Position numbers and translations under genes: made by a program. Below, piece after piece: positions 288 to 45,600 of a DNA stretch of 64,000 nucleotides. The DNA comes from Asterochloris sp. CNOR1. Its lineage: Eukaryota > Chlorophyta > Trebouxiophyceae > Trebouxiales > Trebouxiaceae. Below the pieces are notes generated by a model. The model was not told the DNA's origin, ran no database searches, and saw nothing but the letters and a program-made list of their open reading frames with translations. Positions within the stretch are counted from its first letter, which is position 1. Each line of letters begins with the position of its first letter. The stretch spans positions 1,984,001-2,048,000 of the forward strand of contig OZ017750.1 in the NCBI GenBank assembly GCA_963969365.1. The letters run 5' to 3'.

Positions 288-3200
288 TCATGATGTGGTA
301 TTGCGGCCACTAAAGAAGTTGCGCCAACCCGCACTTTTGCGCCTCTGATGCCGTTCGCCAGCTTCCGTGCTGCTGAAAGTGGATGACCGTGGAGTGGTGG
401 GCCTGGGGGAGTCACTCCCCTCACTGCTCAGGCCTGCAGTGGTGAGCATATCCATTACATTGCTGCATTGGGTGGATGGCTCCGCAAGAACAGCTTCAGG
501 AACACAGCCTGCACTAATACTGCGCTGCTGAGACTTGTAGTCAGGACACCTGCTTGTAAGACCTAGGTTGCAGGCCCAGGGCAGCAGCTGTGAGGCAAAG
601 ACGTGCGCACCTGGTCAGCATGTTTGCAGGGGGCCCTGTGTGTCAAAGCATCCCATCACCACACATCCTGCCCACCTGCAGTGTGTGACCGCCTGAAGCG
701 CCCTGCAATGGGGCTCTCCACAGAGTCTCGTTGCACTTCCACCTGCTGCTCCTTGCCGTGCTCCACCTGCAGCCAGGTGCACTGCTGCCTGGTACATGGG
801 CAAGCTGGCAAGCTGCAGCATGGCATAGCATGTGATAGGTGTCGCTGTGTGCCAACCAAGGGCACAGCAGACAACTGGTTGAGAGGCCGCAGCTGCACAC
901 TGTCTGACAGTAGACTCAGGGTGAGGCGGATACAGCTGCAAATGAGAGAGCAGGCTTGTAAGGGGTCCCGCAACCCAGCCTTCACAGCGTGCACCCCTGC
1001 ATCACAAGCACCGCACAGCATGCACTGAGCCCGAACCGCAGCCCTCAGCGGAAGGATGCCATGCAAGCACAGCCCTGGCTGCAGGTGTGCACCATATGCA
1101 ATGTGCCCAGTGCAGCCTACATCCCAGGCCTCTAGGTAGGGCTAGTGTCTGCTCAAGGGGAGTGGCCTAGTACGGCTTGCTCAGCTCACCTGATGGGCTT
1201 CCCAACAACAGCAACCTCCCTGCTGCACTGAATTCCTGCTGCATGGAAGCAGGTGCCTGCTGCATGCAGGAAGGTGTAGACTTTGACTGCTTGCTTGGGT
1301 GCAGTGCACCTTCATTAGCTCCATGTAGGCGTGGTCTCTGCTGCTGAGCAGGTCCTCCAGCTCCTTTTGCTCCACCTCAAAGCGCTCTGTCAGCTGAAGG
1401 AAGCGCTGCTTGACCTGCATGAAGGCAACATGAGTCAGATCGTGCCCAAGAATTCAGCCAGGCCACCACCAAACCCTTGCAGCTGCCGCAAGCGCTGCTC
1501 AATCTGCAGGAGGGGCCCTTTGTCACTACAGTACCAGTCCAGCTGCCGCATGCCCAGGTCTTTCACCAGGCTGCCCAAGGAGCGCTATGCATGAGGAAGG
1601 GCTGCTTGACCTGCAGCAGGAAGAACTGCCTCCTTCTGCAAATACCAGCTCAGCCCCATGCACATACCTGATGTACCCCCGTCTGTACTACTCTGCTGCA
1701 CACTGCCACGCCAGCCTGACAGGGCCGGGTTGTGATGTGACAAGCACCTGCGGGGTGTTGCTGTCTGGCACATGCGCAGCCACAGGTGATGCGCTCCAGG
1801 CAAGCAGCCAGCTGCAGAGCCTGCAGCACCACCTGGGTTGCCTTGCTCTCAAAGGGCTGCAGCGCCTCATTGGTGCTGACCAGCTGGCCTCTGCGCCCCC
1901 ATGGGAGTGCTGCAACCCAGCCCCCAAACAGGTCAAAGCACTGCAGACCTGCCTGACGCCTGCCTGCACCCTCCTGTCATAGCGCCGCACTGCCCGCTGA
2001 GGCAGCAATGGAGACAGGACCAGCTCACCTGCATATACTCGGTCTCAAAATGCTGCAGGGCCTCCTTCTTGTTGACCAGCTGCTCCTCCAGGCTGCGCAG
2101 AACCTCTGTGGGCGGCGCCAGGGGCCCATAGTCTTGCGAAGGGAACAGCGCCTCAATGATGTAGTGCACCTTCTTGAAGCTGTAGAGGAAGGGAGCCAGC
2201 GGTTGGGGCGTTTGCTCCTAGAGCTGGCAAGATGGGGGCAGGCAGGCAGGCTGCAGCACATAAAGCAAGCTGCAAGGACACCCAGACATCTGACCGCATC
2301 CCTAGAGAGCATCTCACTCAGCACCTCCAACAGACACCATACACATGCATGCACAGAGCCAGGGTGTGCCACAGAGCATTCTGCATGGCGACACCATGCA
2401 TGGCACCATGATGCGCTGGCATCTGCGCAGAGCATCTTCCCAGCACCTTTGATTGCCCTTCCAGGGTCAGCCCGCTGTTTGTGCCATGCACCAGCACACC
2501 GCAGGTCACTTTGACTCTACACCAAGTTTATTGCTTGGCAAGCTTGGCATGCGAGCCACTCACTAATTGTCCCCGTACACAGCCACCATGATGCGCCCCG
2601 GCTTGAGACTAACTTGCTCCCTCTGGCGCAACCCCTGCAGGCGCTTGAACAGCACCGCCTCCGGTCCGCCGTCAGCTGTCTCCAGGGGGCTCGGCTTGGG
2701 GCCCACAGAGTAGGTGGCAAAGGGCAGGAAGAAGAGGCCAGCCACATGGGTGTGCTTCTTAGCCTTCACGCTGTCCTCCTGCAGCCAGATGTGACACACG
2801 TGCAGCCAGGCCACAGCCAGCATCTAAGACAGCCAGCCACGTGGGGCTGCCGTACTTCTGCACGCAACAGAGTGCGTCAGCGGTCACCAAGCAGGGAGAA
2901 GCAACCAGCTAGTTAGGTGTGGTTAGTGGCTTCACGCTACCATTCTTGCTGCCCAGGCAGTGCAGATACTCAGCAACCCACATGGCATCCTAGAGTGGTA
3001 GGCAACAGATCTGGCACTTGCCACTGCCACTGCAAATGCTGCTCTGAGTCAGCGCAGGCTGCTAGTGCTGCACATCAAGGGTTGCACCTCCCGTCTGCAA
3101 CAGCCAGGCTGTCACCGCAGGCTATGGCAGTGCACAGCCACAGTGGACAGCTGCATGCCTCCTGCTGCAGTCCCTCAAGAGAGCGCATTCAGTCACACGA

Positions 3201-5350
3201 TCAGTGCCCTATTGCTGGCCCCCAGCAAACCACAGCACAGGGTCACAGACAGCACAGAGCGCTGTCACTTGCAGGAGCAGCTCCCACTTGCTGCCCATGC
3301 AGCTGCCCCAAGGGAGACTGCCCCAAGGGAGACTGCTTTTGAGACGTCACCTGCAATGCTGCCACCAATGACTGCACAGTGGCAACGACGCGGTGGCTGC
3401 AGGCCCACCTGCAGGAGCAGCTCCCACTTGCTGTCCTCCTGCTCCTCGAACAGCAGCAGCTTGAAGCGGCTGCCCTGAGTGGAGTGTGCGGCCACCAGGA
3501 AGCCCTCGTCAATGTGCTGCTGGCTGACATACAGCTCATAGAAGTCAGCCGCTGCCTTGTCTACCTGTGCGAATGCAGAATTGTTTCCGTGAAGAGCCTG
3601 CAGGCTTGCCATGGTGGTCTGTATGGCAAACCCATGTGGTTGCAGCAAGGATGAAGTGCCGCAGCAGAGGTGGCCTTGAGATGGCCAGCTGGCAGAGCCC
3701 TGCTCATGGCACAGGGGGCTGCTGTGCACATGCGAGGAGGCAGGGCTGCTTACCTGGTTGGTGAGACTGCAGCACCCACCTTGTGGGAATGCGCCTGCCC
3801 AAATTGCAGGGGCTGAGAGGTGAAGGTGTTGTCGTATGCTGCATCCAGGACATGCTGCGGCACAGCAGTTTTGATGGGCACACCTGCAGACAGGCTGACA
3901 GCATGAAAGGCCTGCGCCCCTGCTGGGACGGTGTGCAGTGTACTGGCAAAACCAGACTCACCAAGACGGCTGAACATGGCGGCAAATGCAGTGTTGACCA
4001 CCCCTGCAGGTACATTGCGGGTCAGTTGGCTGCAGCCTCCATCTGAGTGAAGGTCACGTGGCGATCATGTGGCGACTTTGCCAGGAGCAGCTTAGACGAT
4101 GAGAGTAACACGCCACACTGTGCCCAGCTTGAAACAGCAGCCATAGGTAGCCCCCCACCCCCGCCCCCCTTCCTTTCCCCTCCCCAAGTGATGCAGGCTG
4201 CTCAGGCCATGCACTAGGCCAGAGCAGCACACAACAACATCACAAGATATGTTGCTGCAGCAGCAAGCCCCTTGCGCTCCACACTTTGCCATGCATGGTG
4301 TCAAAGTTAGCACAGTTGCCCAGCAACCCTGGACCCCTTTCTCAGCTCACCCAGGCTGCTGAGATCCACTTGCACCTCCAGGTCGCTGGGGTTGAGGCTC
4401 TCAAAACCCCCCATGTCATACTTTCGCTTCTTGTCAGGGTCTGACAGGATGGCATAGGCCTGAGCCACCTCCTTGAACTTGTCAGCTGCCTCCCCTGCCT
4501 TGTCGCCCTGGTTCTTATCTGCAGCACAGAGAGAAAGGAGCAGGGTGAGCACCCTGCAGACAGCGACTGGGTGTGTAGTACCTTCTGGCTCCCGAGCCTG
4601 CTCGCCATGTTTCGTCTGCAACATCAGGTGGTGTGCTGAGCACATTGCAGACATGTTGTTATAAGTTGGCGTCTTCATCCTCCTTGCCTTGCTTCAAAAA
4701 GTAAAGCGCAGGGGTCAACAGAAGGTTGGCAACAAGCAGTCACCACTACAGGTGCATTCCTGCAGAGCTGTCACTTCTGCAGAGCATGGCAGAAGACAGC
4801 AGCAAAGGGGATGCCTCTCGACCTGCTGTAGGCACATAAGGGGGCTGTATTTCTGTTTGCAAATCCTATTGGATGCTTCCATCAAATGTTGGATGCAGGG
4901 CAGGCAATGCGGGACTTGGGAAAGGTGCATCGCCCCACAAAGTCTTGCTGGGTCTTGTCTGCAGCGCATTGGCAAAGGCAGTGCTGAGGATTTGGCCAGC
5001 TTGATAGCCAGTGTATCTCGCCCTGGTTATGCACCACATGCCATTGCGTTTTGCAGCTGACAACGTGACCAGCTTGCTAGCCAGCCATTTCACACCAACC
5101 TACACAGCTCATGCGGTGCGGTGTGCCTGACAGCACAGAGCAGCGGCATTCTTCTGCATCCGCATTCAAGACAAAAAAGGCACTGCTCTGCAGTCAGCTT
5201 CGCCTGTAGCTGCCCACCTGGGTGGTAGCGCAGGGCCAGCTTGCGATAGGCTGATTTGATTTCCTCAGGCGTTGCTTCCCGTGCAACACCAAGTGTCTCA
5301 TAGGGGTCTGTCGGCATGTCATCAGGGGTGACGGCCATGCGACGGCTCAT
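288..5350 (-). CDS. ARG1: ARG1-type DnaJ-domain protein (Altered Response to Gravity 1 family)
   Basis: In plants ARG1 is a membrane-associated J-domain co-chaperone that acts with Hsp70 in gravity signalling; its algal role is unknown. Ten exons keep phase: 5350-5218, 4518-4351, 4003-3962, 3883-3780, 3564-3409, 2778-2564, 2179-2029, 1414-1310, 766-676, 433-288 (436 aa; Arabidopsis ARG1 is about 410). The J domain lies at about residues 14-80. Its HPD motif is split by intron 1 (CACCCAG, then AT AAG AAC gives HPDKN). The ARG1 core follows ([36 protein letters not shown]), then a charged coiled coil ([30 protein letters not shown]) and a basic tail ([18 protein letters not shown]), which matches the family's C-terminal arrangement. 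The start is the first ATG before the J domain. The last two exons are supported mainly by phase and tail similarity. Family identity is near certain. Confidence 0.9.
1385..1630. repeat. Three degraded copies of the ARG1 exon-8 acceptor junction
   Basis: The start of ARG1 exon 8 with its acceptor, read on the plus strand around 1400-1426 (AAGCGCTGCTTGACCTGCAT), recurs inside the same intron at about 1489-1515 (AAGCGCTGCTCAATCTGCAG) and about 1596-1620 (AAGGGCTGCTTGACCTGCAG). Spacing is about 90-107 bp. The copies lie in the intron between exons 7 and 8 (1415-2028) and are not needed for the protein. Confidence 0.65.
3271..3433. repeat. Copy of the ARG1 exon-5 donor junction inside the next intron
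   Basis: Bases 3411-3433, the end of exon 5 next to its donor, are repeated identically at 3271-3293, an offset of 140 bp. The shared 23 bases begin GCAGGAGCAGCTCCC. The copy lies in the following intron. A 15-bp unit (CCCCAAGGGAGACTG) is also tandemly doubled just beside it, at about 3306-3336. Confidence 0.85.
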
Positions 5351-5470
5351 GGCGCAGACAGCCTGGGCCTCTCAGCTGTTTCCTGAAACGCCTGCTGGCC
5401 AGTAGGCAAGCTGTGTACTGTGAGCTTGGTTTGGAATCATGCTTAAGCTCTGAAAGTGGCCACAATTAAC
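5351..5470. promoter_or_regulatory. Short divergent promoter between ARG1 and the LRR gene
   Basis: Only 120 bp separate the ARG1 start codon (minus strand) from the first plausible ATG of the LRR gene (plus strand). Both 5' UTRs and both core promoters must therefore lie here or overlap the genes. I see no clear TATA box. Confidence 0.5.
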
Positions 5471-9264: not shown

Positions 9265-12200
9265 ATGAGAATGCTGATCGACATTGGCGCCAATCTCTTA
9301 GATCCGATGTTTCAGGTGAGGTGGTGCTGATGCTGTATAAGCTTGCCCAGCTGCTCGTGCCAGAGGTTGCAAAGTGCCATGACCAACACGTCCCGGCCAG
9401 ACATTGAAAGCTTGCTTCTGCTTGATCAACAAGCAGTCTCATGACTGCAGGGTGAGTACAACCACAAGTGCTATCACAGCCCAGACATAGGTGCCGTGCT
9501 GCAACGCAGCTGGGACGCAGGTGCGGCATGCCTATCAATATGCACTTGTGCACCATTACGCAGGCTCAATCCTTGTCTCACATATTGCGCCTAGCTGGTC
9601 TGCTGCTGCAACTGGGAAGAGCATCAATCCCACATCGGCAGCAAGAATCATCACTACCCGGCAGCATTGCTGTAGGCGTGCAGCGCATCATCGTGACGGC
9701 AGGCAGCCTGAGTGAGGCAGAGGCCGCCTTAAAATTTTCTCTTTCTGACGGTGAGACCAGTGAATTGCAAGATGCAATATGGCTGCACATTGCCCGTTCA
9801 AGGGGGTCTGCTTTTGAAAGGGGAGTTTGCTCTTGTTCCAGTTTGGTCTTGGGCTTGTGCTGTGTCTGCTGGACCAGCCGTGCTGTGACAGCTTGCATCC
9901 GGCCCGGGTGTGTGACTGTGGCACATTCAGCGCAAGGCGCATGCTGAAGATGCCATCTGTGTTTTGCAAAGGCTCTACATGTTGGTACAAGTTGGCTGCT
10001 AGCTACTGTGTCTCAGGAAGGCTGCTCTTGCCCTGTGCAATGACTTATGTGCTGCATGCAAAGGCAGTGCTGCAGGCCTACACACAAACTGCCTTGCTGA
10101 CTGGGCGTCTACTTCATTGGATCATGCAGCACTATTGTGCTGGCTTGGTTCAGCAGCAAGGTAGTAAAGTACCACTCCTCACCTGCTGTGAAGAGCTGGC
10201 CTGCTCTCAACCCCGCATCAGCAGCATTGAAGGGGACCCCTGGGGGCCAGACAACATTAGTTGCTGAATGTTTGCCCACCTGGTTCTGTTTGGCAGACAG
10301 GCAGTGTTGCAGTGTGGGCGGCGATGAGCTGCCTACAGCTGCTGGATAGCTGGGCATCGTGCAGGCCGGACAAGGCAGCGTCTGCAGACACAGCGTTTGT
10401 GGCTTTGCCAGTTCATCCAGTTCTGTGCACACAGGCGGCTCTGCAGGGTGGGCAGCCACCCAAAGCCCTCCAAGTGAAGAAATTTCTATCTGGAGGGCTT
10501 TCACCCAGAGGCTGGACAAGCTGTTTGCAGTGAATGTGTCCGCACTTGCATTTGCTGCACTGGCAAAATTCCTTGCTGACCCTTGATTATTGTGCAGAAA
10601 GGTTGTTCTGCACAGTGGGCATTCACCCGACACGCACCGGAGAGATTGAGGGCCATGTCCAGGGGGCAGGCGCCTACATGAGCGCTCTGGAGGCAGTGGC
10701 CCGCCGCGGGAAGCGGGCTGGCAAGGTGGTTGCTATAGGAGAGTGCGGTCTAGATTATGATAGGTAGGCTTGAGCATGGCGCTCTGTTACGAGGGTGACG
10801 GGAACTGTAGCTGGATGCACAATAGGTGCTAAACTCTGCTCAGATCAGCAGAACCAAGCAGGCACAGTGACGCTCTGGCCACTGATGGTGGTTTCTCCAA
10901 CTTGCCTTAACTGTTTCAGTCCACACCACATAATGGGGCAGGGTCTCACAGGTTTCAGTAGCCTGTAGCCGCCCTCCCGCCCCCCGCAAGCTGCAATCTG
11001 CTGTTCAGGACGTGCAGAGATGCTGGATCCAGCAGCCTCTCCAGCTGGCTGCACATGAGAGCTTACAAAACTGCTGCAGGCTGCAGTTTGCCGACAAGGA
11101 GGTGCAGAGGCGCTGGTTCCAGGAGCAGCTCAAGCTGGCTACAGCCACTCAGCTTCCCATGTTTCTTCATATGAGGGGGGCAGCAAGTGACTTCATTGAC
11201 ATTCTGTGTAAAGAAATGTGAGTGTGCAGGGCAATCATTGTTCATGCTGACGCGCCCTTCACCTAACGGACTGCATCAACACTGCACTGGCAGAAGTCAA
11301 GATATTGGGCCTGAGCCGGCAGGAATGTATGCCTCCTCGCAGCGCAGAGCTGGTGCTCCTAGTTTCCAAGTATTGGCTCAGCCAGCATCCTGTACAGGTT
11401 CAGCTCACAGCTGAGGCTCGCCGCTGTACAAGCACCGTAAGCGCTGGCAGCAGTGCCAAGCTACTGATGTTTTGCTGGACCTGCACAACAGTCCCCTTTC
11501 ATTTATGTGGGCAGCACGGCATTGCTGGCTGGTGGTGTACACCAGCTTCCACCACCTCTGCGCACACGTCTGCTATCTCTCTGCTTTGGCAGCATCCAAT
11601 ACTGTTGAGAACACACCATCACCTGCAAGCCATACCTCACTGCGTTTGCCTGGCTCTGCAGCTCAGCTACTTCAAGTGCTGCCTTCTTCAACAAGCACTG
11701 CCCTGCTGCAGCCAACATTTTACCAGCGGTGTGGTGCATTCCTTTGACGGCAGCCAGGAGGAGCTTCAGCAGCTGCTGCAGCTAAAAAACATTGCCATAG
11801 GTAGGCCACCCCCTTGCTGGGGTGTCGGGCCCTTTGGTGATGGATGTGGTCACTTGCCACAGCTGCAGGGCATTGCCCTGGGTGGTTCTTTCTATGCCTG
11901 TAAATGATAGCATGATGCTCAGCAGTGTATACCGACAGGGGACACTTCAGGTCTCGCCCCTGGGTGGCAAACAAGCTGACTCAGGATGTAACTTGGGCGG
12001 TGCACTCAGCAGCGCTTGGCTGCTGCAGGTTTGAGAATGCGTGAGCAGCTTGTGTGCCTTTGAAATTGCATGCTGCAGCCACATCATCCTCGCTCACCTG
12101 CACAGGCCTTTTCAGCGCGCCTTCTATTTCTGTGTTGTTCCCAGCAAAGCTGTGAGCAGCTAGTTGCCTTCCATGGCAGCATCATGCAGCCTGCTCATGG

Positions 12201-13102: not shown

Positions 13103-14908
13103 ATGTGGCTACCACCAATGTGGATCGGCCTGAGCAGGCACTGCAGCGCACTGTCCAAGGCACGAGAGATCGTTACTCAGATTGCCAGTCTTGACGGGGT
13201 CCGAGGAGTGCTGAGACTGGCAGGTCCAGACATCATTGGCTTCCTCCAGGTCAAGACTGCAGCACTGTCCTGCTCCTCATCTAAGCACAGAGACAGTCTG
13301 TGAGATGGCCTTTGCAATCGCAGGGTCAGCTGACAAATGATGTGAGGCTGCTTGCCGAAGATGGGGCGCCACCCATGTACGCAGCCATGCTGAACTCACA
13401 TGGCCGCTTCCAGCATGACATGTTCCTCTATCGCCAGCCAGGTGGGAGGGCTCTTGTTGTGCACTGGACTGCAATCAGGAATGCTGCCTGCTGCCTGTGC
13501 GCCCCTGCTCCCAAGCCTGCAGAGCAACAGCAATAGAGCTGCTGCACTGTAGGCAACAAGCCTGTCATCCTTGCTGATGTGGATGCAGCCAGCGCAGACC
13601 GCCTTCTGCAGACACTCAAGCGGTAAGACTGTCCTGAGCGCTGCTTGCCGAGCTGCATTGCCATGACACAAGGCAGCCCTCACCACGCTCCCTCTATCGT
13701 CCAGGTCCAGATTACGGGCCAACATAGAGCTCCAAGACCTCTCACAGGACTTCAAGGTCTGGACGCGGTTCGGCAGCGGGCAGCTGCAAGAAGGTCCGTG
13801 GTGCAGGTTGCAGGTGCATCTCCATCCCAAGTGCAGCTGGTTTGGGGTGTCCTTCTGGGCAGTCAAGTGCTGCAGGCATACCAGTGGTACATGCTGCCTC
13901 CATGCTATGCGTGCTGCTCTGCTTGAACTACTGCCTGCAGATGCCAGCATCCCCATCTCGCCTGCACAGCCTTATGCAGGGCTTGGCCATCAGAGCACAC
14001 ACAGCACATGCTGCCTGCAGTCGCCTCCATATCCACATCACCTGCACTGCCTCACGCAGGGCATTGGCCATCAGATCCACGGCTGCCACTGCTTGGGCAG
14101 CGTGCGGTGCTTGGCGCTGAGGATAGGCCTTCCTTTCAGGGGGACGAGCAGCAGACAGATCCTGTTGAGTACAGGCGATGGCGGATAGAGCAGGGTGTGG
14201 CAGAAGGACGGGATGAGATAGAAGGTGGGCAGCTCTGAAGCGCCGTTGCACTGCCATCGATGCAAGTCAGGGCTCAGTGGGGTTCTGGCTGCATGCAAGC
14301 CGGTCACAAAGCGCTGTGCGGCCTGCAGTGGATTCAATCCCCTTTGCCTATAACATGGACGGCCTCAACGCCATCAGCTTTGACAAGGGCTGCTACCTGG
14401 GCCAGGAGCTTATTGCCAGGACACACTACACAGGCGTAGTGCGCCGGAGATTGGTACCCTTTGTTGCTCAAGAGGGTGGGTCTGTCTGGAAACTGTGCTG
14501 CTTGAGCCTGAATGATGCATGCTGGCATGGACTTTGCACAGCCTGCCCAATCTGGCCTCCCAACCGTCACTACTGCAAGTGCCCCTCAAAAGGTAAGTGT
14601 GTGGTGTTGATGTCACTCTCGGCAACAATCATCGAGCCTTTTGCCCGTCTGCAGGGGACCTTGTTCCCGGCCGCCCCGCAGTCGAAGTGCAAAGTGCTGC
14701 CGGCGGCAAGACAAGAAAAGCTGGCAACATTGTAATTTCTGACAGAGGTCGCGGGCTGGCAGTCCTCTTTGTGGACTCTGCCATTCAAGCAGAGCAGGGA
14801 GAAAGCAGCCTGCAAGTTGCTGATGGGGGGGCCAGAATTACTCCTTGGATTCCACAGTGGTGGCCTGAACGATGGCGCAAACAGATGACTGATACTCAGC
14901 CTTCCTGA
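13103..14908 (+). CDS. IBA57: IBA57/YgfZ-type folate-dependent Fe-S cluster assembly factor
   Basis: IBA57 works with ISCA1/ISCA2 in mitochondria to mature [4Fe-4S] proteins and belongs to the GcvT/YgfZ fold family. Exon 1 (13103-13249) begins MWLPPMWIGLSRHCSALSKA, a plausible mitochondrial presequence, followed by GVLRLAGPDIIGFLQ. Exon 2 (13324-13441) gives GQLTNDVRLL and MLNSHGRFQHDMFLYR. Later exons give ILADVDAASADRLLQTLKR, ANIELQDLSQDFKVW, SDPRLPLLGQRAVLG, YRRWRIEQGVAEG and PFAYNMDGLNAISFDKGCYL, with GQELIARTHYTG next. The diagnostic motif KGCYLGQE is intact. The protein ends WPERWRKQMTDTQPS. The start could also be the second Met (13118). Exon edges between 13740 and 14060 are uncertain. 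Confidence 0.9.
13931..14079. repeat. 80-bp tandem duplication across an IBA57 splice acceptor
   Basis: The acceptor used at 14059 (CTCACGCAG, then GGCATTGGCCATCAGATCC) has a degraded twin 80 bp upstream at 13979 (CTTATGCAG, then GGCTTGGCCATCAGAGC). Similarity runs back through CTGCCTGCAG and CACCTGCAC or CGCCTGCAC in both copies (13931-13999 and 14011-14079). Confidence 0.8.
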
Positions 14909-16447: not shown

Positions 16448-16475
16448 CAATGAAACAGTGAGGGGGTGAAGCAGA

Positions 16476-30755: not shown

Positions 30756-30775
30756 CGGCTCCGTCCACAGCAAAA

Positions 30776-31234: not shown

Positions 31235-34200
31235 AGCTGGCAGCCACTCCTTGGCCTTGGCCTTCAGGTCAGCGGCGGGGACCATCCTGCGCTCCGTCAT
31301 GGCATCCGAGGTGAGCTGGGTGCCAGCGGACGCTGGCTGGGCAGAGGGTTTCTGGTAGGGCTGATCGATCAGGTGGGCCTGGGGGTCAGGGGACTCAGGG
31401 TCGAAGCCCTGCAGCACCAATGCACACATGTCAAAATGAATATATAGGCGGCTGTGCAAAGAGGCCTCAGGCACACAGGCAGGCCCAGACGGCCACCAAA
31501 GCTGGCTGAAGCTGGGTTGGGCTGTACAAACGAGGCTGTAACTGAGCGCGCTGGCAAATGCAGCACCACCAGAGCTCAGCAAAACACAGGTAGCTTGGGG
31601 TGTGTGACAGGTAGGCACAAGAGCCCAGGCCTGGACAGAGCTGTCTGCGCGAAATCAGGCACACAGAGCCTGCACAAGCGTCAAGTGACCAACACTTGCA
31701 CCCAACGAGTTCTGTTCAAGCTACTGACCTTGGACTTGATCCAATCCTCATTATAGATTTTTGTCAAGTACTTGACACCATTGTCGGGCAAAATTGCAAC
31801 AATGACGCTGCCATGCGCTGCACGCTTGGAAAGCTCCACGGCAGCATGCAGGTTCAGGCCGGCAGATCCGCCAACTAGCATGCCCTCCTTCTGTGCAAGC
31901 TTGCGGCACATCTGCGGTGCAGGCAGCCACAGGCGTCAGGACTTCATGTGACCTTTCAGCATGCCCTCTGACTACACCAGCCTGATGCACATCTGCAGGG
32001 GCAGAAGCCACAAGTGCCAGGCTGGTGTCCATGGAGGGATAGGAGGATGAGGCATCTCGTCAGTCTGCACAGGCTGTTGCTAACGGCACGGAGCCGCTGC
32101 ATGATCCACTCCATAGTAAGTGCCTGTGCAGTGCAAGCTTTGCTGCAACGTTGCCCTCACGAACACACTGTGCTGGTGTCAGCGCACGCAGACATCAGGT
32201 CATTGCAATGGAGGATTGACGCGCAGAGTGACACCATGTGCATGATAAGCTCTCAGGACAGGTGCAGTATAGGCAGGCTTACCAGGAAGGACTGTTTGTC
32301 AGTGACTTGGATCATGTCATTGATGATGTCAAAATTGATGGCGCCTGGAATGGAGTCCTTGCCAACACCTTCACACTGCAGACACATCACAAAACCTTGA
32401 GACCCCTGCAGCAGTCTGTTGCCCGCCAGAGCCGAGTGGAATGTCAGCCAGCCGGAAAGCGTGCCAGACACGGCCAGCGCTGGCAGCCCAGAGAGGTTGG
32501 AATTTATCTCAGACAGCAACACACTTGCTCAGTGCGTGGCAGAGGTGAGTACCATGCACACACGCTTTGCATGCTCCTGCCCCACTGGATGCTTCTCTTA
32601 CCTGGTAGGAATTGGCCTTCAAGTCTTCCTCCTTGATGCGCTTTGCCCAGAAGTCCCAGAATACGCTGCCCACGGGATCAGGCAGCATGACAAATATGTC
32701 AGGGTTCATGTCCTTCAGGAAACGGCCGGTGCCGCTGATGGTGCCGCCAGTGCTGCCGCCCGCCACAAAGTGCGTCACCTTGCCCTTGGTCTGCATCCAG
32801 ATCTGCAGGGAGGCACAGGACCCGTAAGGTGAGGTGCGCTGCACAGGAGCTTGTCAAGGCAGCGCATCATGCCTGTGGAAGCGAGGTAGGCAGCAGCCAG
32901 CATTGTGCCGCACGCTGGGCTGGATGCCCAGCCCAATGCCCTGGCACACACGGTTGCCACCATTGATAAGTTCCAGTTCAACAGAGCCTCTCACCTCGGG
33001 GCCCAGTGTCCTGTAGTAAGCCTCAGGGTTGTTGGGGTTGTCGTACTGGTCCACATCAAAGTAGCCTGCATTGTCCTTGCACAGGGTGACAGCCATGTTC
33101 TGGTAGTGGTCCGGGTGATCCGCGGGGACACCTGACGGGCCGATGATGACCTCCCCACCATAGGCCCGCATGGAGTCACACTTCTCCTTGCTGGTCTTCT
33201 CATTGGTGATGACTGCGGGGCAGAACAGGGACACAAATGAGACAATAGGGCACAAAGGACCCTGCACACCATCCTGCTGGGCTTTCACTCACCTCGTTGC
33301 AGGCACGCAGGCAGGCAAGTAACCACTGCAGGCCGCAGCTGGCTGGCCCATTACAGCAGTGCCACACTCCTCTACTGCAAGTGGCCGTGCATTTATACTA
33401 GCCCTTGTCATTGGGTGATGACTGCAGGGCAGGGCAAGCCCACAGGTGGGCACTTGTGGCGCTGCAGAATCCTGCAGCAAGCTGCTGCGTCATTCTGCAA
33501 GGCATGGCAGCACAGCATCTGGCACCACATGAGATGAGCTGTGCCCACGCAAGATAAATCAAGCAGCAGCCTCCTGCAGTTCACAGGCCGCCACCGCATG
33601 GCCTCACTGGAAGGTTTGGTGGGCAGGTACACAGGCACAGCCAGCTGCACTCCCAGCCAGATGCACCTGCAGGGGGAGCACCTGGTTTGGGACTGCACTC
33701 ACCAATGTAGTGGTACCCCTTCATGGCTGAGATCATGGCCACAGAGGCACCAGTGTTGCCCGATGTGGCAGCCACCACTGTGCCGCCAGGCTTAAGTTTG
33801 CCCTCCTGCTCTGCACGTGTCAGGATGTGGTCAGCAATGCGGTCCTTGATGGAGCCCGAGGGGTTGGCGAATTCGCACTTGCCCAGGATCTTGACCTGCA
33901 GGGGGAGAATGCAGGCGATTCAGCTCCAAAATGTGCTGATGCGGTTGGCAGGAGCCACCACTGGTGGAAGTAAGCTTCCATCATGCCAGCAGCTTAAAGT
34001 GCACTGGTGCCACCAGGAGCTGAGCTGACGTGCACAGCAGTCAAGTCCACCACAAGATGCTAGCAGCACGCTTTGAGGTGAGCACTAATCACCCGGCTGG
34101 ACCCTGGCTGCCGTTGGCAAGGTGCTGGTGATGCCAACAAAGCTTGGCTGCTCACCTGCGGGTTGGCGCTGAGGGAGGACAGGTCCACCATGGGAGTATT

Positions 34201-35683: not shown

Positions 35684-38098
35684 ATGATGAATGGACAGCA
35701 CGCTGCAGCCATGGAAAAGCCCACTTCAGCTGTCACAGGCAGGGCTATCAGCAAGCGGCCGCCAGTGACTCGGCTGCTCCCTCAGCACTGGGCGTACCTG
35801 GTCGTGCTGTACAGCCTGGGCGCATGTGCGATAGCAGGGGGCGTCAACTTCGCCGTCGCGTATGGTGAGGCAGCCGTCCTTCAGGCACCCACTCCTGTGT
35901 GCAAGCTCAGGCCACAGCCAGTGGCGCGCTGACGCCTCAGCGTGCACCCTCCTGCCGGCAGTGAGCGGGGCCGTTGTCAGCTCCCCGAAACAAGAGTGCC
36001 TGATGGCAAGCTTTGGGATGCAAAGCTGCACTCTGTTTCTCATTTCGCTGGCACACCCTGCCATGGCATGAAGCCTGGACTTCACACCTGAGTTGGCTAT
36101 TCTGTTGTTGGTGCTGCACACCGAGCCTCAATCTCCTTGATGACCCTGTGTGCAGGAATGTATCACCACAGCAAGCACCCCATGCGCCTGTGGAGCATCA
36201 ACAACAACACCCTGGCAGGCGACTTTGGAGTGACAACCATTGTGGAGTGCATTGTGTGCTGGCTCATCTCCACCATGCTGGTCTGCCAGGCAAGCACATG
36301 GTGACGGCAGCAGCAGCCCTGCGGGGGGAATGTGGCTGGGTGCCCACCATGCTGGTCTGCCAGGCCTGCACATGCTGACACACTGCGCTGGAACAGCAGC
36401 AACGGCTGCTGGTGAGACAGGACATCGCTTGTTGGGCTCTCCACCATGCTGGTCTGCAAGGCAAGCGCCTCATTTGCATTCTGTTTGCCAGCAACTGCTG
36501 GGGAAGGGTATCGCTTGCTGGCTCACTGACAGCAGCTGCTCACCATCATCACCCAGCGTCTTTGTCCAGGGGCTGCAGCAACAGCGGTGCCGTGAGGGCT
36601 CTGCTGGCCCATGTTCACTGTGCCGTGCCCCCTTACCAGGACTGGGTGGGAGGCAGCAACCCTTACGTGCATCCCCTCCAAATGAGCATGCATGACACCC
36701 ATCATCTGCAGGCGCATCACCACCATGTAGCAAGCAGTACTCACTCAGCGCTGGCAGCTGCTAGGCATGCGGCAATTTCCCTCCTGCCGCAAACTTTGTA
36801 AGATGCTCCTGCCTGTCCATGATCAGCCCATTGCGCTGCCTGCGCCACGCCCCCACAGGTGGGTTGCGCGCTCATGTCTGCTGCACTGGCACACCAACTT
36901 TCACTGCCCAGCAGCAGAGCTGCTCGCGACCATGCTCAACCGGGCAACAGGCTTTCTGCTGCATCATGTGCGCCAGAGGGTCCGACAGACTCTGGCCTGC
37001 TGCCAGGCACGGCATCCGGCCCTTTGACAGCACGCCCCTGCTGCAGAATATGCATGAGGCGCTGGCCAAGCCATTTCCTTGCCGCGCAGCAGGCTGCCGC
37101 CCCGCAGAACCACACAGGAATGACGTGCAGCCCACCCCAGCCCCGTTCCTGCTGCAGGACGTGCGCCAGGGGGCCTATGGCGCCTGCCCCCTTCTGCCCA
37201 ACAGGCCACCACCCCCTGGGGGGTCCTTTGGCAACAAGTTCATGCGCCGCTATGCATCAGTGGAGGGCATGGACCTGCTGGCCCCTGGCATCACCTTTGC
37301 GCGCCGCTTCAAGCGCCTCATTGGCTCTGCGATCCGGGGCTTCCTCATCTGCATCCCCACCTTCTTCATCTGGTGAGCCTCTGGCAATGGGTCCAAAAGG
37401 TTGCCTGCTGACCTCTGGCATCTGACTTCTGGCACCTGATCAGTGCTGCACCTCACACCTCAGCAACTAGCTGCACCCCGAGCTACCTCATCTGGTGGCC
37501 TTCTGGCACTTACATGGCGCCTTGCTGCACCTGCCCTCTGCCAGCCAGAGAGCTCTGCTGGACTGTGCGTGCCCCTGACTGCAGCAGGCTACCCAATGCA
37601 GGATGTTGCCTGCCTACGCCCGCTTGCCTGCACTGCTGCACCTGCTTGCTCAGGGCAATGCTCACATGTCAGCATCTCATCTGCAGGTGGCCAATTGGCG
37701 TGGGCATCATGGCTGGCATTGGTACAGACCTCCCCAAGCATGAGTATGGATACAACCACTACCCAGAGCCTCAGGTTGCCAAGCTCATCTATGGAGGTAC
37801 TAAGTCTGTGCTGGAGTCAGCTGCTCCTCTGGTCCCATGCCAGCTGATCAGGCAGATAGGAGCATTGTCCTTGAGCTCTCCTTGAGCGATGCTCAGCTAT
37901 AAAGCTCAGGGCTCTGTCATGTGCGCAGGCACCATGGCGCTGGTTGTGAACCCCATAATAGCCTACCTGGCCCTGTTGGCTAAGGGGCAGGAAGTGCAGG
38001 AGTCCACAGGCGCTGTGCAGCATCAGGTGCCTGCAGGTCAAACAGTGCAGCTTCAACCACAGCCTGCTGCTGGCCAGGCCAAGGGCTCCTTAGTGTAA
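35684..38098 (+). CDS. Multi-pass membrane protein of unknown function
   Basis: The start MMNGQHAAAMEKPTSAVTGR (or the second ATG cluster at 35711) precedes a membrane span in exon 1 (WAYLVVLYSLGACAIAGGVN). Next come GMYHHSKHPMRLWSINNN and TLAGDFGVTTIVECIVCWLI with STMLVCQ (to 36289). The next exon begins about 37160 (DVRQGAYGACPLLPNRPPPP) and contains YASVEGMDLLAPGITFARRF and GFLICIPTFFIW. Then WPIGVGIMAGIGTDLPKHEY and TMALVVNPIIAYLALLAKGQ follow, and a Gln-rich tail ends GQAKGSLV. About four to five membrane spans are visible. The intron after STMLVCQ starts GC (CAG then GCAAGC, 36290), the only donor that keeps phase with DVRQG. It resembles an uncharacterised eukaryotic membrane family (possibly DUF2456, from memory, unchecked). 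Confidence 0.7.
36250..36470 (+). repeat. Three tandem copies of a GC-donor junction
   Basis: The exon end with its GC donor (CCACCATGCTGGTCTGCCAG then GCAAGCACATG, 36270-36300) recurs at about 36343-36375 (CCACCATGCTGGTCTGCCAG then GCCTGCACATG) and about 36441-36470 (CCACCATGCTGGTCTGCAAG then GCAAGCGCC). Spacing is 73 and about 98 bp. The third copy keeps a usable GC donor. Confidence 0.9.
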
Positions 38099-38276
38099 CT
38101 GGACCAGCCGCAGCCCGGATTTGATGTTACTTGGAACCGCCCTGCTAGCCTTTCTGCACTTTGCCCAGCACCTGCCCCATGGCCCTTCGCTGAGTTGGCC
38201 CATCTTCAAGTTTGCTGGACAGCTGGCAGTTGACATGTGTTCATTGTCTAGTTCTTGAACTGAATGCACATCTGAC

Positions 38277-38428
38277 CTGGTACACTTCTGCTGCTCTGTC
38301 TGAGCCAGCCCTACTGTAACATTCAGACGCTTCCAGATCAAGTATTCATGGGTCCATCTAGTCTCTAGAGGAAGTGCAAAATTGAGCTGGTACATCTCTG
38401 CTGCTCTGTATGAGCCAGCTCTGCTGTT
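38277..38428. repeat. 110-bp-offset direct repeat in the 3' UTR zone
   Basis: CTGGTACACTTCTGCTGCTC with TGTCTGAGCCAGCCCT (from 38277) is repeated as CTGGTACATCTCTGCTGCTC with TGTATGAGCCAGCTCT (from 38387). Both lie between the convergent stops of the membrane protein and CSN5. The first copy contains the plus-strand TGTAA (38315-38319). Confidence 0.8.
38315..38319 (+). terminator. TGTAA poly(A) signal of the membrane-protein gene
   Basis: TGTAA lies 217 bp past the stop codon at 38098, on the plus strand. Confidence 0.4.
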
Positions 38429-38438
38429 GTATAGTTCA

Positions 38439-41400
38439 TCAGGTTTCCATGGGTACAACTCCTGCAGCAGTGCCTGATGTGGGTGGTTGGGAAAGCTGAC
38501 TGTCTGCTGCTGAGGACGACGAAGTATCTTGCGTTCCTGAAGGTTGGTTGCTGCTGGTGTCTGCAAAGCTCTGGTTGAAGAGCTGATGTTTGATGACCTG
38601 CATTGAACGTGGCTGATCACACAGGCAGGCAGCACTGCAACGCATTGGGCATGCCAGCAGACCATATCCTGATTCCCACATACAGGTTGCAATGCCAAAC
38701 CACTCACTCAGTGCCAGAAGTGTTGCCTTCGATCCCAACGAAATGCACTGCATGTCTTGGGCGCTCCAGCACTTCAAGCCTGCTGACCCACCAGAGTTCC
38801 AGCAAGGCTGTCCCCTGCCCACCTGGCTGGTGATCCCCTTGACCTGCTCCACAGCCACCTTGGAGCTGTCCCTGCACACTTTCACCAGCTTGTCGTCGCC
38901 CGTTCCTGCCTTCTTGTCCCCGAAAGGCATCGAGTAGCGCCCGATCCGCCCGCTGTGCACCAGCTGCGAGTCCACCTGCTCCAGCTTCTCAGCTGCAGGC
39001 AGGACAGGCCCCAGCTCAGATCCCAGGCAGGCAGGCGTTTCCGGCAGGTAGGTGTTGGAGGTGACCATCGGCTGCAGGCGGTCCAGCCTATGAACTTAAC
39101 AGGGCAGCACTACATCTCGGTTGCAGACAGGGCAGCCAAAGCATCTTGCTTGGTGACTCCTGCTCGGACTTTAGCCGCAGGCATAGCAGGAAAGCCTTCC
39201 AGCAGTTGCACTTGAGAGCCGCTCAGGGGAAAGCCACATGAACAAGCTTGGCGCTCCTGCCTTCAGCATCTCTGTTGCAGCCAGGGCAGCTCTGGTGGGT
39301 GCACAGCACTCCAAACAAGCAGAGGCATGCAGGCAGAGGGTCACACCCCGGGTCCTCAAGCGGCAGTGCAACCTGTCTGGGAGGAAACCCCATCAAGGGA
39401 GGCAGATCGCCTGGGCGACTCATCCCGGGGAGGGCGGGGAGGACGTGTTGTGAAAGGTGCTCATCAGAGGGACACCCCAGGCAATGGCTTCACAAGGGAG
39501 ACAGCGCAGCTGGGCATGCAGTATGGTGGTGCATTGCCTGCCCTGGTGTCTGGCCCCGAGGGCAGGCATGCCAGTCCTGGTACAGCGCACACTCAGAAGA
39601 TGCGTCAAGCCTTACCACCAACATCAGCAGTCTATCCCCCGGTCAGGTTCCAGATCCTATCAGGGGCCGCTGCTGAGCTTGTCCATCCTCAATGCCAGGG
39701 CCCAGTGCTGCTCAAAGTGCAAAATATTGCAGCAGTCGCCACTGCTGCACATCAGAGTGCACCAATGGCTGCACCTTGCCAAGCACGTGCCTAGCAGAGG
39801 TCTATTGCTGAGCAAGTCAGCCCAGCATTGTTCTCCGCAGACAAGCACAGTGCAGTGCATGTGGATGGCGGCCTCAGCACAGGGCTCACCAATATCTGCA
39901 ATCTGCCCCGCGGTCAGGTCCCGTGTTCCCAGCAGGGGGCTGCTGCTGAGCGTGTTGACCCAGTACTTGTTCCACAGCAGATCCAGCATGTGGCTGTCTA
40001 GCCCAGACTTGAAATAGGTCATGTTCAGGGGGTAATACCTACACACCGGCAACAGCTCTATTGGCTCCTGCTGCACACGCCCAAGGTTGGCATGATGATC
40101 TGTGCCACAACACAAGCCATATCAGGGACCCGCCAAACACAGCAAGACTCCGCATGCTGCTCTCCTGTTCATGGCATCAGCCCACACCTTGCCAACAGCC
40201 CAGCATCCTGGCAGATCTTGGGGGTGCCCGGCCACATGCCTCACAACAGTACACGCAGGAGGCTGACGGGAAGAAGGCCCTGATGCTGCTGGATGCTATC
40301 CTGCAAGCAGGGCGTGCTGCCAACAGCAATTACCTTTCAGAGTGGACACCGAAGTCCTCGATTTTGTTCAGAGGGATGGTCTGGTACTCTGAGGGGGCGG
40401 CGTCTGGGGGCTTGTAGCCCTGCAACAGGCCGGACGTGGAGTCGGACAGGGATGCAGCGGACCAACGCAGTTACTGAGAGCCCTGCTCGATGGCTGTTGA
40501 TCAAGTGCCACAGTGCAGCCGCTTCCGCTTGACCACTGCTCTGACATTGCAAGCTCCAGCGCAGGACACATGTCCCCTTTCCCGACCATGTCAGAGATGC
40601 TGGCTGGAATGTTGGTGCCTGACTCAGTCAGCAGGCCGTCCCCAAGCTGTGGACGCTGCCAGCCCAGCAGCAGCTCAACCGCGCCCCTGAGCCATCAGCA
40701 GACTTGTCAAGCTGCAGTGCGCGCCTTGGCTTACCTTGCTGAGAGGCATCCACTTGGCTCAGGCTTACAAGGCAACGCACTCAGGCAGCGGACCCCAGGG
40801 GCAGCTGAGGCCTGTATAGCAGCCCTCAGACTGCTGGCTAAGATGATATTTCGGCCGACGAGCTAGTGAACCCAGGCGCGGACCCAAGGTAGCTGGGCAC
40901 CTCACTCCCCAAGGCTACTGCTGAGATACCTTCATCTGCTGCTTTGGGCAAGTGATGACAGCAGCGAAGACCTGTACGTGACCCTGTGTAGGAGGTTGCG
41001 ACAGCTCTGCAGCCCCTGCGCGCAGTCACGCAAGCAGAATGGCAGCGCCCAGATGACACATTGTCTGCTGACCTCTGGGTAAGTTCGAAAGGCGCCAATC
41101 TCGACCTTGCCGGCTGCAATGGTGCGGTGGGGGTCAATCACGATGGCCAGGAAGGGGTCCATGTGCACCTGCTGAGTGTGCTGGGTGCCTACATCGATGC
41201 CCGACAGCCAGCAGCCATAGCCGGGGTGGCTGTGGTACCAGCCCACCACGTTTTCGAGGCGTCCCACTTGCTGCAGCGCAGGGGAGGTCAAGCATGAGAA
41301 CTTCAGAAGATGCTTATCAAGACTGGCCCACCACAACCTCTGGACACCCTTTTGCTGCAGGCTGGGCGAGAAGCACACTGACGCTACCCGCTGGAGCACG

Positions 41401-42372
41401 AGCCCAGGCGACCCGATTGCTGCAGCACAGGGGAAGGGACAGATGTGGATGCCAACCGCCTGAAATGCACACAGCTGGGAGCAGGAGTTTGCTGGGCTCC
41501 TCACCCAGAACAGTGCTGCATGAGCCACAGGCACACTTGAAAAGACTGCAGCCCGCCAGCATGTCTGGAGTAGCGCCTGCCTTGCCTTATTTGTCTCGAG
41601 GTATTGGAACATGTACTCATATGCCTCCTCCTGGGCATTGACGCGGGTCTCTGTCCCCTCCACTGGCAGCGCAAAGACATCAATTATGATGAAAGTATCA
41701 CCCTGCAGGCACAATTGAGGGATGCAGAAGCAGTGCCTGCTGCACACTACTGTCGCACCGCACTGAAGGTGCTTGAGGCAGGCTCTGTTTGCCGGGACAC
41801 CCTGGCCCACCGCCGTTGAACGGCATTCTGTGCAATAGCAGCCCTGAAGCTGTGAAGGCAGCCTGAGGCACGATTGCAACAGACTGATGCATCGTGCTGC
41901 CCTGTGGAGAGCAACTGCACAGCGACGGAAGCACCACCTAGAGATGTGTCTCACCTGGCACTTGCCCTGCAGCATCCCCATGACCTCAATGTTGCCGCCA
42001 GACTTGGCGTGCATTGCCATCTTGAGGAGTGCTAGGGCCGAGACGCAGACACTGCAAAGCACAGCAATATATCAACTGCAGCCTTGCATTGTCCAAGCAG
42101 CCACAGATCTGTGCAAAGTCACACCATGCTGACTTTGTGTGTCAACACGGCTGACAGCCAGCTGCTGCTCTGGACGCGCCATCAACTGCACAGCAGCAGC
42201 AGCGTGCCCCTCACTTCTTGAAGTAGTTTGGATCCTTGGACCATGGTTTTTGCTGCTGCAGAGTGCGATGCTCCTGCTCATCGTATCTGAAGTAACCCTC
42301 CACTGCGTCATCTGCTACATTGTTCTCCAGCTCCCAGCGTTGCTGAGCTGCTTTGCCTGAGCCTCCCGTCAT
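38439..42372 (-). CDS. CSN5: COP9 signalosome subunit 5 (JAMM deneddylase)
   Basis: CSN5 is the zinc isopeptidase that removes NEDD8/RUB from cullins within the COP9 signalosome. The start [20 protein letters not shown], then [20 protein letters not shown] and [11 protein letters not shown], matches the CSN5 N-terminus. [20 protein letters not shown] with MGMLQGK supplies the JAMM glutamate, and [20 protein letters not shown] supplies the two histidines, serine and aspartate. [40 protein letters not shown] with LWNKYW, and [18 protein letters not shown] follow. The Ser/Thr-rich tail ends [10 protein letters not shown]. All catalytic residues are present, so activity is expected. Exon 1 spans 42372-42215. 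Intron edges beyond the first few were not all fixed. Confidence 0.95.
39628..39975. repeat. Decayed copies of a CSN5 exon end
   Basis: The exon encoding [18 protein letters not shown] (plus strand about 39888-39975, with CCGCGGTCAGGTCCCGTGTT and GGGGGCTGCTGCTGAGCGTG) is echoed in the adjacent intron. One copy is at about 39638-39690 (CCCCGGTCAGGTTCCAGATC, GGGGCCGCTGCTGAGC). A weaker one is at about 39783-39835 (TATTGCTGAGCAAGTCAGCC). Confidence 0.65.
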
Positions 42373-42667
42373 CCTGATGCAGAGGGTTTGAAGTGGTTGT
42401 CATGCACGATCTCGGTCAAGTCAAAATCAATCCAGGTTATTATTCATCTCAGGCTAGCTTGAAAACAAGTATACATGCAGGAGCAGTAATCAGAGGTCAG
42501 TGATTAAAAGCAAGAGCCACAACTCCGGGTGGTCTATCGAAGCACATGCAGGACCAGCAAAATCCTGGAATTGAGAGGTGCCTGAGGCTGCATCAGCAAT
42601 CTGCAAGCCCCAAGAGGTGCGAGCCTCCACATTGCAGCAACCATGAAAGGGTGCAGGGGACGCAGAG

Positions 42668-45600
42668 CTAGTTGCCACCAGGGGTCTCCTTGGCCAGCCA
42701 CTCCTTGAGGGCTGCTGCGCAGATGTCCCGGTCTGTGGAGCTCAGGCTGAACTCGTTGCCAATCTCAGCAGCAATCTCCTCGGGGGTATCAACTTCAGGG
42801 TCATAGGTGAAGTCAATGGTGCGTTTGGGCTGGTTGCTGCGGTGCTCGGGGGAGTCATCGTCGCTGCCTTCGTACCGCATGTTGAGGCGGAAGGACAGCT
42901 TCCCATTTTTTATGCGCCCGCTGAACTGCAGTCACAGATTGACAGGCCATCAAGCACAGACAGGCATGCACACCTACAAAGCAACACCCTAATGGTGTCG
43001 AGGTAACAGTATGGCTTGCCAGTCACAATGCGGGGGAATTGGACGGCCTCAGCTGTTGGGTGAGGTGCTATGACGCAAACAAAAATTCACTTGAGCAAAG
43101 GCCTCTTGGTGCAAACGACAGTTTGATGCTGGTGAAGTGTCTGCTGAACTGCCGCCACAGTCTGGGCAGCTCTTCAGCACAGACTGCCACGTTTCTACAC
43201 AACGCATGAGGCACAAATGGGCTTGTTATGCCTGGCTGCTGCTTGTCATGTCCTTTGATTTTTCTGAGATAGAAGCTTGACTGCAGCAGTGCCAGCTAAA
43301 GGATCAGGCCCTGCAGGACCTGGACGATGTTGGTTCCAGCAGCCCAGGACCGGCAGTGGCTGGATTGCATGTACACCCAGCAACACCCCGGCCAGGCCCT
43401 GGCTTTTCCCAGCATCAAGCATAGAAAGGCCTAATGCTTGCGTTGCAGCCCGATCAGGGAAACCAGTCCTCTCCTCTCCAGCATACTGTACTCATTAGGT
43501 AAGTGCCATAGAGATCAAGAGGTAACATGCAAGATACAAATGAAATACCGTGGTTCAGCCTTGCCTTGGGCGGCACCAGTAACGGATGCTGCAAATCCAC
43601 CTAGCATCTGCACTCCTCCCTCCTCCCAAGTGTAACCACAATACACAAATGCGCAGCAGCACACCAGCAAGATGCAGCAAACTTGCAGTGCCCCCCACCT
43701 GAACAGTGCAGTGCCTCCCCACACCGTGCCCTCTACCCACAAAGTGCAGCAGCTCGCCAGCAAGGTGGCGCCATCTTGGATTCCAACCGCCTAGAAGTTG
43801 AGATCCCCCCTCTGAGGGCAGAAAGAGCAGCAGCACGCCATGCACACTTTATGCACCTGGAAGTTGTAGTCCTCCCCTCTGACGGTGCCGACAATGCACG
43901 AGGCGCCCACATCCTCCATGTCCCGCCCGCTGCGAGCAGCTGCAGCTGCATCAGAGGTCTCGCTGGCTGACCGGGCCAGCTCAGTCTCGATTAGCCCCAC
44001 TCCCTTCTTGGATTCCGCCTTTGTCAACCTCCTGCGGCGCAGAGATGTGAGGCCTGAGGTCAGGTGCACACAGCAGGGCCATGCAGGCGGACACCAGTGG
44101 CCGTGATCTGCCCCCTGTGCAGCCACCAGCAGGCCGGCAGATCACTACCTTGTTGACATCTGTTTCTTGGTACTGTCCTGCAGCTGGTTTCTGTTGTGCT
44201 GTGCACCTCCTGCCCGTGCAGGCTGGCAGCCACCGTCAAGGCAGTGCCCACAGGTGTGCCCTGCTGTCTTCTGTGGAGGCACGGCACGCCTGGTGCCGTG
44301 CCTGCCAATGCACCAGCAGCATACTCCATGACGGCAGCACTGCGCTTGCTGGTGTGCCACCCGGCCTCATGCAGAGGCACAGCAGGGGCTGCATGCATGA
44401 GTGCTCCTCACTTCTGAAGGAAGAGGTCCTCCAGCAGCTCCGCTGCTGTCGGCCGCGAGTTGGCAGGCCCCAGGCAGCGCAGGATGAAGGCGCTGGCCTC
44501 CTGGTCCTGGACAGTATCTAGCAGCTGAGGCCAGATCTGGCAGTTGCTGCAGGCAGTGCAAATCCCAGCTCAGGCAACCACCCGGCAGTTGCTGTAGGGA
44601 GCACAAGGTCTCCCATCTCAAGACGGGATCTGGCAGTTGCTGCAGGCTAAGCAGCACCCAGGTCAGATCAGAAACCTGCGCCGTCTTGTGTTCATTAAAA
44701 GCAGCTGGATCTGAAGTCTCTGCAGGCAGCACATGCGCCCCTCTCTGGCAGAGGAGCTTGTCAGAGGTTCAGGAGCGTAGCACAGGCTGCAGCCTGCTGA
44801 GCTCAGTAAGCATACAGCTTTCACAGCTGCATAGCATAGCGGTGCACCAGCTTGACCAATCTGCAGCAGCGCGATCCTGAGCTGCCTTACAGCGCCACAG
44901 GTCCTGGATGGATAGCCAGACCACAACACATGAAAGAAAGGTCCTATGTACCTTCCGGGATCTGACAGCACTCCACAACCACAGCAGGGTGAGGCCTCCA
45001 CAACAGACAACCCGTCGTATCAGCCTCGATGCTCCAGTCCTCTCCCTGCCTGCAGCATGTACCTGCTCTCCAGCTTCTTCAAGGTGGCCAGCTCCAGCAC
45101 GCACAGGCCAAAGGCGAAGATGTCAACGTGCTTGGTGTACTGGTTCTCCTTGTTCACGCCATCGGGAAGGGCCTCTGGAGCAAAGCGCCGCGGCAGCAGC
45201 GTGGCCAAACCAAGGTCCCCAATCTTGACATCCCCGCTGTGGCCGTTGATGTAGATCTGCAGAGATTGTGGGGATACTGAGACAGCAAGGGGTTTGCGTG
45301 GCTTTTCATGTGGGCCTGCAGAAGTCTGGGCCCGAGCCACATCCTCTGTATTGATGCCCCCACTGTGCCTGCTAATTTAGATTTGCCCCATTTGATGGGG
45401 TCTGCTGTTCCAAGGAGTTGATGATGAGTGATGATCAGTATGGGCCTGGCACATGTCCAGCCCGGCCGCCTGTATTGTGTCTGACAGCAACTGCCATAGT
45501 GCTGGGGGCCATCTGTAGCGCTGCAGTACAGACCTGCTTCCCTGTTTGAGGCATCCTGCAACAGCCTGGGGGCAGCACAAGCCAGGTTTGATCTCACAGC

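Follow-up and report, generated by a model that had tools for sequence, protein, structure and literature searches.

Do the splice junctions of the green alga Asterochloris sp. CNOR1 attract duplications, or do they simply share in a process that copies short segments of DNA throughout the genome? The question is raised by a 64,000-nucleotide stretch of this genome (C5:1984001-2048000, on GenBank contig OZ017750.1; hereafter the window), in which introns of several unrelated genes hold decayed copies of their own exon edges together with the adjacent donor or acceptor. The original prediction, drawn from the letters of the window, took these copies for the trace of an ongoing, genome-wide process of duplication across splice junctions, a proposed route of intron gain and growth. 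Our analysis leads to a different assignment: the junction copies are probably the share of a general, old local duplication that happens to cover an exon-intron boundary, the spare splice site being tolerated.

The genome comprises 56.4 Mb in 21 contigs, with a GC content of 0.576. The main sample of 264 kb consists of the window and 200 kb of the same genome taken from contigs C1-C4, and a further 50 kb of C9 (700001-750000) served as a hold-out, giving a combined sample of 314 kb. Genes were modelled from the DNA with our own small gene finder, a hidden Markov model (HMM) trained on the 264 kb and kept blind to the hold-out. In the 264 kb it predicts 401 introns in 80 gene pieces, with GTGAGC-like donors, CTGCAG-like acceptors and a median intron of 234 bp, and partitions the sequence into 0.32 exon, 0.42 intron and 0.26 intergenic DNA. 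For Asterochloris glomerata, the genome report (PMC6652019) gives a GC content of 56-62% across 98% of the genome, about 26% intergenic DNA and 9 introns per gene, compared with about 5 per gene piece in our models. Nine of ten predicted window proteins matched Pfam families (DnaJ, TatD, WD40, WW, PALP, DUF2456, JAB/CSN5_C, kinase and tubulin), and the Pfam search of the predicted protein at the gene called IBA57 in the original prediction gave no match. ARG1, ELP2 and IBA57 are used below as labels inherited from that prediction and not as results, since Pfam returned only DnaJ, WD40 and no match, respectively.

Direct repeats at short range are far in excess of background. Counting ungapped direct repeats with a score of at least 15, the 264 kb hold 174 at offsets 20-599 against 3 at offsets 1500-2079, and the C9 hold-out has 91 at offsets 25-599 against 1 at 1500-2074. 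Removal of segments with one trinucleotide above 30%, of offsets below 25 and of near-duplicate diagonals reduced these sets from 174 to 163 and from 91 to 68 pairs, 231 in all. The comparison of own with mismatched exon-intron pairs that had been proposed as a check gave the same picture: of 398 introns, 18 resemble the exon sequence on their own flanks at score at least 15, whereas foreign introns of similar length gave a mean of 0.5 and a maximum of 3, and the inverted orientation of an intron against its own exon flank produced a single match among the 398. Likewise, 48 of 930 junctions have a spanning copy in their own neighbourhood, against 1 of 2790 in the neighbourhood of another junction, so that the copies are indeed more than low complexity, as had been claimed. 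Where copies differ, transitions and transversions stand at 497:488, a ratio of 1.02 compared with 0.49 in the background, a shift expected for copies diverged by mutation. Local repeats are present in unrelated genes in all six sampled stretches, each with local duplication across exon-intron boundaries, which bears out the predicted recurrence. The same kind of repeat is found in introns, in intergenic DNA and, in frame, in exons.

The place of junctions within this population was assessed with an annotation-roll null, in which the annotation is rolled against the repeats, and with point-wise rates added as a second test. Rolling over the 231 pairs gives 80 exon/non-exon pairs observed against 75.8 ± 7.3 expected, 116 pairs with both copies non-exonic against 122.2, and 35 exon/exon pairs against 32.9. 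Point by point, a junction-spanning copy lies in nearby non-exonic DNA for 5.2% of junctions (48/930; donors 22/465, acceptors 26/465), and the same test applied elsewhere yields 4.4% of intron-interior points (266/6000), 3.2% of intergenic points (194/6000) and 1.7% of exon-interior points (101/6000). Junctions do not differ significantly from intron interior (odds ratio 1.17, p 0.31 at score 15; p 0.83 at score 18; p 0.30 at score 22), p values that are rough because the Fisher tests count neighbouring sample points as independent. Going from the junction into the exon, the copy rate falls from 4.9% at 4 bp to 3.5% at 25 bp, 2.1% at 40 bp and 0.8% at 60 bp, the pattern to be expected if a copy of exon DNA does no harm only where the duplicated unit extends beyond the junction. 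Junctions are thus not clearly preferred, and a modest excess may lie at them; the clear tie to splice sites that was originally put forward did not emerge.

The reading frame provides the filter that separates exons from the rest. Offsets between copies within the same exon are multiples of three in 25 of 27 cases (p 2e-10), and those between exon and non-exon copies spread evenly over the three frame classes (20/18/18), which together suggest a process blind to frame from which selection removes what disrupts coding. Retention of splice dinucleotides, also part of the original claim, is real in number (AG or GT kept in 24 of 30 junction copies) but not clearly above the 0.676 found for the same dinucleotides elsewhere in repeats (p 0.10).

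Most events appear to be old. Dating relied on 141 of the 231 pairs, obtained by removing the dispersed-repeat blocks of C1 and C4 and mainly exonic pairs and by keeping offsets 60-299 only. A single pair of the 141 looks young (at least 90% identity over at least half of the offset), against about 37 at a constant rate with ages taken as uniform up to K 0.7; identities of at least 95% number 13, against 40-58 under a model of displaced copies. An expectation-maximisation fit of divergence bands also returns few young events with both indel rates tried; its absolute K varies with the indel rate and with the assumption of full tandem units, and the young-share comparison was used in its place. 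With young events nearly absent, the word 'ongoing' of the original prediction is not supported. Local duplications are about four times denser in the C9 block (40 dated pairs per 50 kb) than in the C1 block (10 per 50 kb, dispersed repeat excluded).

We favour the following sequence of events. Short stretches of about 25-300 bp were duplicated locally and in direct orientation all over the genome, at rates that in introns, junctions and intergenic DNA agree within a factor of about two. A duplication lying wholly within an exon survives almost only when its length is a multiple of three, and one in non-coding DNA or across a splice site would be tolerated, since the original site can stay in use; an extra piece of exon with a spare donor or acceptor would then remain in the intron and decay, presumably unused and neutral. 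The units may be tandem and could have arisen by replication slippage or by repair of staggered breaks. Tandem duplication through patch-mediated break repair and the tandem nature of most short insertions have been reported (Vaughn and Bennetzen; Messer and Arndt). The copies described here resemble those duplications in being short, direct, perhaps tandem and scattered with no close regard to genes; they differ in offering too few young breakpoints for a test of mechanism.

The window illustrates the range of outcomes. The original prediction gave no coordinates for its single cases, and their matching to repeat pairs, through the HMM models and Pfam names, is ours. The pairs are as follows.

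1391-1425, minus strand: exon start and acceptor of the ARG1-like DnaJ gene (exon 1310-1414), source of the next two copies; from the repeat scan.

1480-1514 and 1587-1621, minus strand: two intronic copies of the 1391-1425 acceptor block in the ARG1-like gene, 77% and 71% identical, AG retained in both.

1830-1886, minus strand: intronic copy, in the ARG1-like gene, of the exon end and donor at 2026-2082; offset 196, 75% identity.

3266-3296, minus strand: intronic copy, in the ARG1-like gene, of the exon end and donor at 3406-3436; offset 140, 94% identity; the stretch 3240-3460 is single-copy genome-wide.

10986-11053, plus strand: exon-start copy upstream of exon 11076-11143 in a TatD-type DNase gene; offset 90, 76% identity, single genome match; TatD by Pfam on neighbouring predicted exons.

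13931-14062, plus strand: pair 13931-13982 / 14011-14062 in the gene labelled IBA57; offset 80, single genome match, both copies within one intron of the HMM model.

24227-24378, plus strand: intron copy (24227-24293) of acceptor and exon start (24312-24378) in the ELP2-like WD40 gene; offset 85, 73% identity, single genome match; WD40 by Pfam.

27123-27190, minus strand: intron copy (27123-27145) of the donor at 27168-27190 in the WW gene; offset 45, GT retained; WW by Pfam.

31877-32021, minus strand: acceptor block (31877-31940) and intronic copy (31958-32021) in the CBS-type PALP gene; offset 81, 70% identity; PALP by Pfam.

36270-36476, no strand assigned: three copies (36270, 36344, 36441) inside one predicted intron, no junction involved; from the repeat scan.

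37349-37508, plus strand: donor block (37349-37386) and intronic copy (37471-37508) in the DUF2456 membrane-protein gene; offset 122; DUF2456 by Pfam.

38265-38427, no strand assigned: pair 38265-38317 / 38375-38427 in predicted intergenic DNA; offset 110, 83% identity.

41257-41434, minus strand: acceptor block (41257-41285) and intronic copy (41406-41434) in CSN5; offset 149; JAB and CSN5_C by Pfam.

44534-44666, minus strand: pair 44534-44573 / 44627-44666 in the protein-kinase gene adjoining CSN5; offset 93, both copies intronic in the HMM model.

The repeats announced in the named genes exist, far above chance, and several of their details changed. The IBA57 pair is intronic on both sides, and the DUF2456 and CSN5 pairs may not be the cases originally meant, since offsets 122 and 149 were absent from the list given there; the kinase pair probably was meant, as suggested by the coordinate at which that finding ended. 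In the ELP2-like pair the ungapped core used in our counts begins 17 bp inside the exon, and in CSN5 a doubtful 8-bp predicted exon separates the two copies. The HMM called both TatD copies intergenic, and their intron-exon boundary was placed by manual frame reading: the gene (window 10598-11220) has an exon missed by the gene finder, with an acceptor placed by hand at about 11079, within the 11076-11143 block. An exact 196-bp array in the ARG1 intron, where two pairs share this offset, was considered and rejected because identity at offset 196 is limited to two patches. The best protein-kinase match of the genome, at C19:10167-10916, lies in a single open frame of 713 aa, the other matches being mostly exon-sized, and it may have a different origin. 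At 63745-63823 the window also has an inverted repeat of 29 bp, near-perfect and closed by a short loop, the sole local inverted repeat scoring at least 18 in the 264 kb.

A number of observations weigh against the explanation by general, old duplication, and they are best judged together with the alternatives to which they lend weight. They start with the structure of the units. Core flanks align above the null in 17%, 27% and 31% of pairs, depending on the group (0/4 in the smallest), so that tandem structure is unproven. Short copies displaced by templated-insertion repair of the polymerase-theta type, and not true tandem duplications, would account for the many pairs that show only a short core relative to the offset and for a flank similarity below that of simulated tandem duplications of moderate age. 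Simulated tandem duplications that are highly diverged yield similar cores, and several pairs fill the whole offset (86/86 bp and 63/65 bp in the 264 kb; 62 bp at offset 61 in the C9 hold-out). Templated insertion (theta-mediated end joining, TMEJ) is expected to copy from both strands, and local inverted repeats are near background (10 near against 4 far in the 264 kb; 3 against 3 in the hold-out). In simulations, displaced copies pass the flank test in about 2-14% of cases in groups that are not tiny and old tandem units in roughly 20-70%; the observed values exceed the former and lie between the two, so that a mixture is possible. Displaced copying as the general explanation is unlikely.

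Age and decay bring two further difficulties. The deficit of young events requires a change of rate for which we have no explanation. Exon and non-exon copies differ at similar rates in all three codon positions (0.179, 0.173, 0.205), but so, nearly, do in-frame exon pairs (0.181, 0.142, 0.185), leaving decay as non-coding DNA unproven. The flatness, taken at one stage as proof of such decay, was withdrawn for this reason, with a slight loss of confidence in the favoured explanation, and the test cannot decide whether the copies ever coded.

The remaining difficulties concern the junctions and speak for the model of the original prediction, in which duplication is specific for splice junctions, or directed to them, and introns are gained and lengthened as a result. 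More junctions have a copy in non-exonic DNA than the rolled null predicts, with 47 against 22.5 ± 4.9 at score 15, 23 against 14.7 ± 3.7 at score 18 and 12 against 9.1 ± 3.0 at score 22, and junctions also surpass random gene-body points (48/930 against 80/3000; 38/930 against 65/3000 with the splice consensus masked). The depletion of exon interiors accounts for much of these excesses. The first form of the roll, with 163 pairs and the location of the copy unrestricted, gave 35 junction-spanning cases against 24.9 (p 0.04) at score 15, 18 against 17.4 at score 18 and 11 against 11.6 at score 22; taken alone, the annotation roll is ambiguous for junctions because its null mixes depleted exon points with introns. 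Two local residues persist: junctions exceed intron interior 1.29-fold per allowed offset at score 15 (8.18% against 6.34%), and a bump at the junction reaches about 1.7 times the rate found 25-60 bp into the intron (2.5-3.2% there). Both could arise if the exon half and the splice consensus change more slowly. Copies are also more frequent in introns than in intergenic DNA when counted per allowed offset (6.34% against 3.51% at score 15; 2.00% against 1.74% at score 22). Exons are paired with predicted intergenic DNA more often than the rolled null predicts (19 against 10.7 at score 15; 10 against 3.5 at score 22), which, as a guess, may come from exons missed by the gene models. These models lack RNA support and missed at least one exon, that of TatD. 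Against a process bound to junctions stand the lack of a significant difference from intron interior at all three scores and the presence of the same repeats in intergenic DNA.

Intron gain was tested by junction-anchored alignment of donor with acceptor contexts in 468 introns. Five score at least 16 (0.6 expected) and one at least 24 (0 of 9360 mismatched pairs), and we grade one signature as strong and four more as moderate. An ungapped version on 398 introns gave 3 at score 10 (0.66 expected) and 1 at score 12 (0.04 expected); the first gapped counts were left unused because in introns below 90 bp the two contexts physically overlap. The strong case is a predicted 55-bp intron, C1:541105-541159 (L005:1105-1159), on the minus strand in a FAM135-family gene (DUF676 and DUF3657 by Pfam). 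Its length equals the repeat offset, the exon end CAG|GTGGG matches the intron end CAG|GTGGG, so that AG|GT stands at both ends, and the intron aligns with the start of the following exon. This predicted intron fits gain by tandem duplication of an AGGT segment and to that extent favours the original model. None of the window introns reaches score 16 in this test, which asks for an offset matching the length of the intron and for AG|GT at either end, and gain as the usual outcome is not supported. Growth is plausible: none of 128 introns below 150 bp holds an internal pair, and pair density rises with intron length, a trend that is partly geometric. With so few introns showing the signature, a mechanism directed at junctions appears improbable.

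A dispersed repeat family, or an introner-like element within introns, would find support in the 29 of 163 cores that have a non-local match at E ≤1e-3 within the 264 kb, and in the C1 block L002:3959-4700 and the C4 block L020:5342-6000, which have one dispersed repeat in common, itself holding local duplications. The window contributes just 1 of its 36 pairs to these 29, and each of the four window loci compared with the entire genome found no match but itself, in a search that skips very common words. The four loci tested are thus not dispersed repeats, one of the outcomes that the original prediction had named as its refutation, and we consider such an origin very improbable. Chance similarity from low complexity or biased words is refuted for the set as a whole by the nearly empty same-composition controls, even though the genome looks rich in CTGC/GCAG words on direct inspection, and only single low-scoring pairs may still be due to it.

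The explanation by general, old duplication places this alga among known systems. Duplication across exon-intron boundaries is already established (Gao & Lynch 2009, as cited in PMC4974935). The copies described here are like such internal gene duplications in being local units that span part of an exon and adjacent intron in unrelated genes; unlike them, they were set against counts for intron interiors and intergenic DNA of a single genome, show no clear junction preference and are mostly decayed. Rogers-type intron gain proceeds by tandem duplication of an AGGT segment carrying splice sites (PMC4974935, PMC2891723), and one sampled intron, C1:541105-541159, fits it; unlike this route, the window cases represent an existing intron acquiring a spare site. 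In the potato RdRp gene, a duplication crossed an intron-exon boundary and formed a new intron (PMC4974935), whereas the copy here sits inside an old one. A literature search turned up nothing comparable for this alga, a negative of little weight, since most subscription papers lay outside it. We file the finding as a new instance of an established kind of duplication, with the age skew as the one feature deserving a specialist's look.

A general mutational process can thus appear specific for splice sites when only genes are read, and the rate in intron interior, the frame filter and the inverted-repeat control are simple controls for claims of intron gain by duplication. A bolder reading, which we hold as speculative and rather doubtful, is that a past and now nearly silent wave of local direct duplications of 60-300 bp passed through this algal lineage, left a spare splice site beside about 1 in 20 junctions, seeded intron growth and occasional intron birth, and that a shift in replication or repair would show in its age spectrum. 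Should the age skew hold, a burst of local duplication would be preserved in the genome like a fossil, and alternative splicing would have ready material in the spare splice sites that lie near about 5% of junctions.

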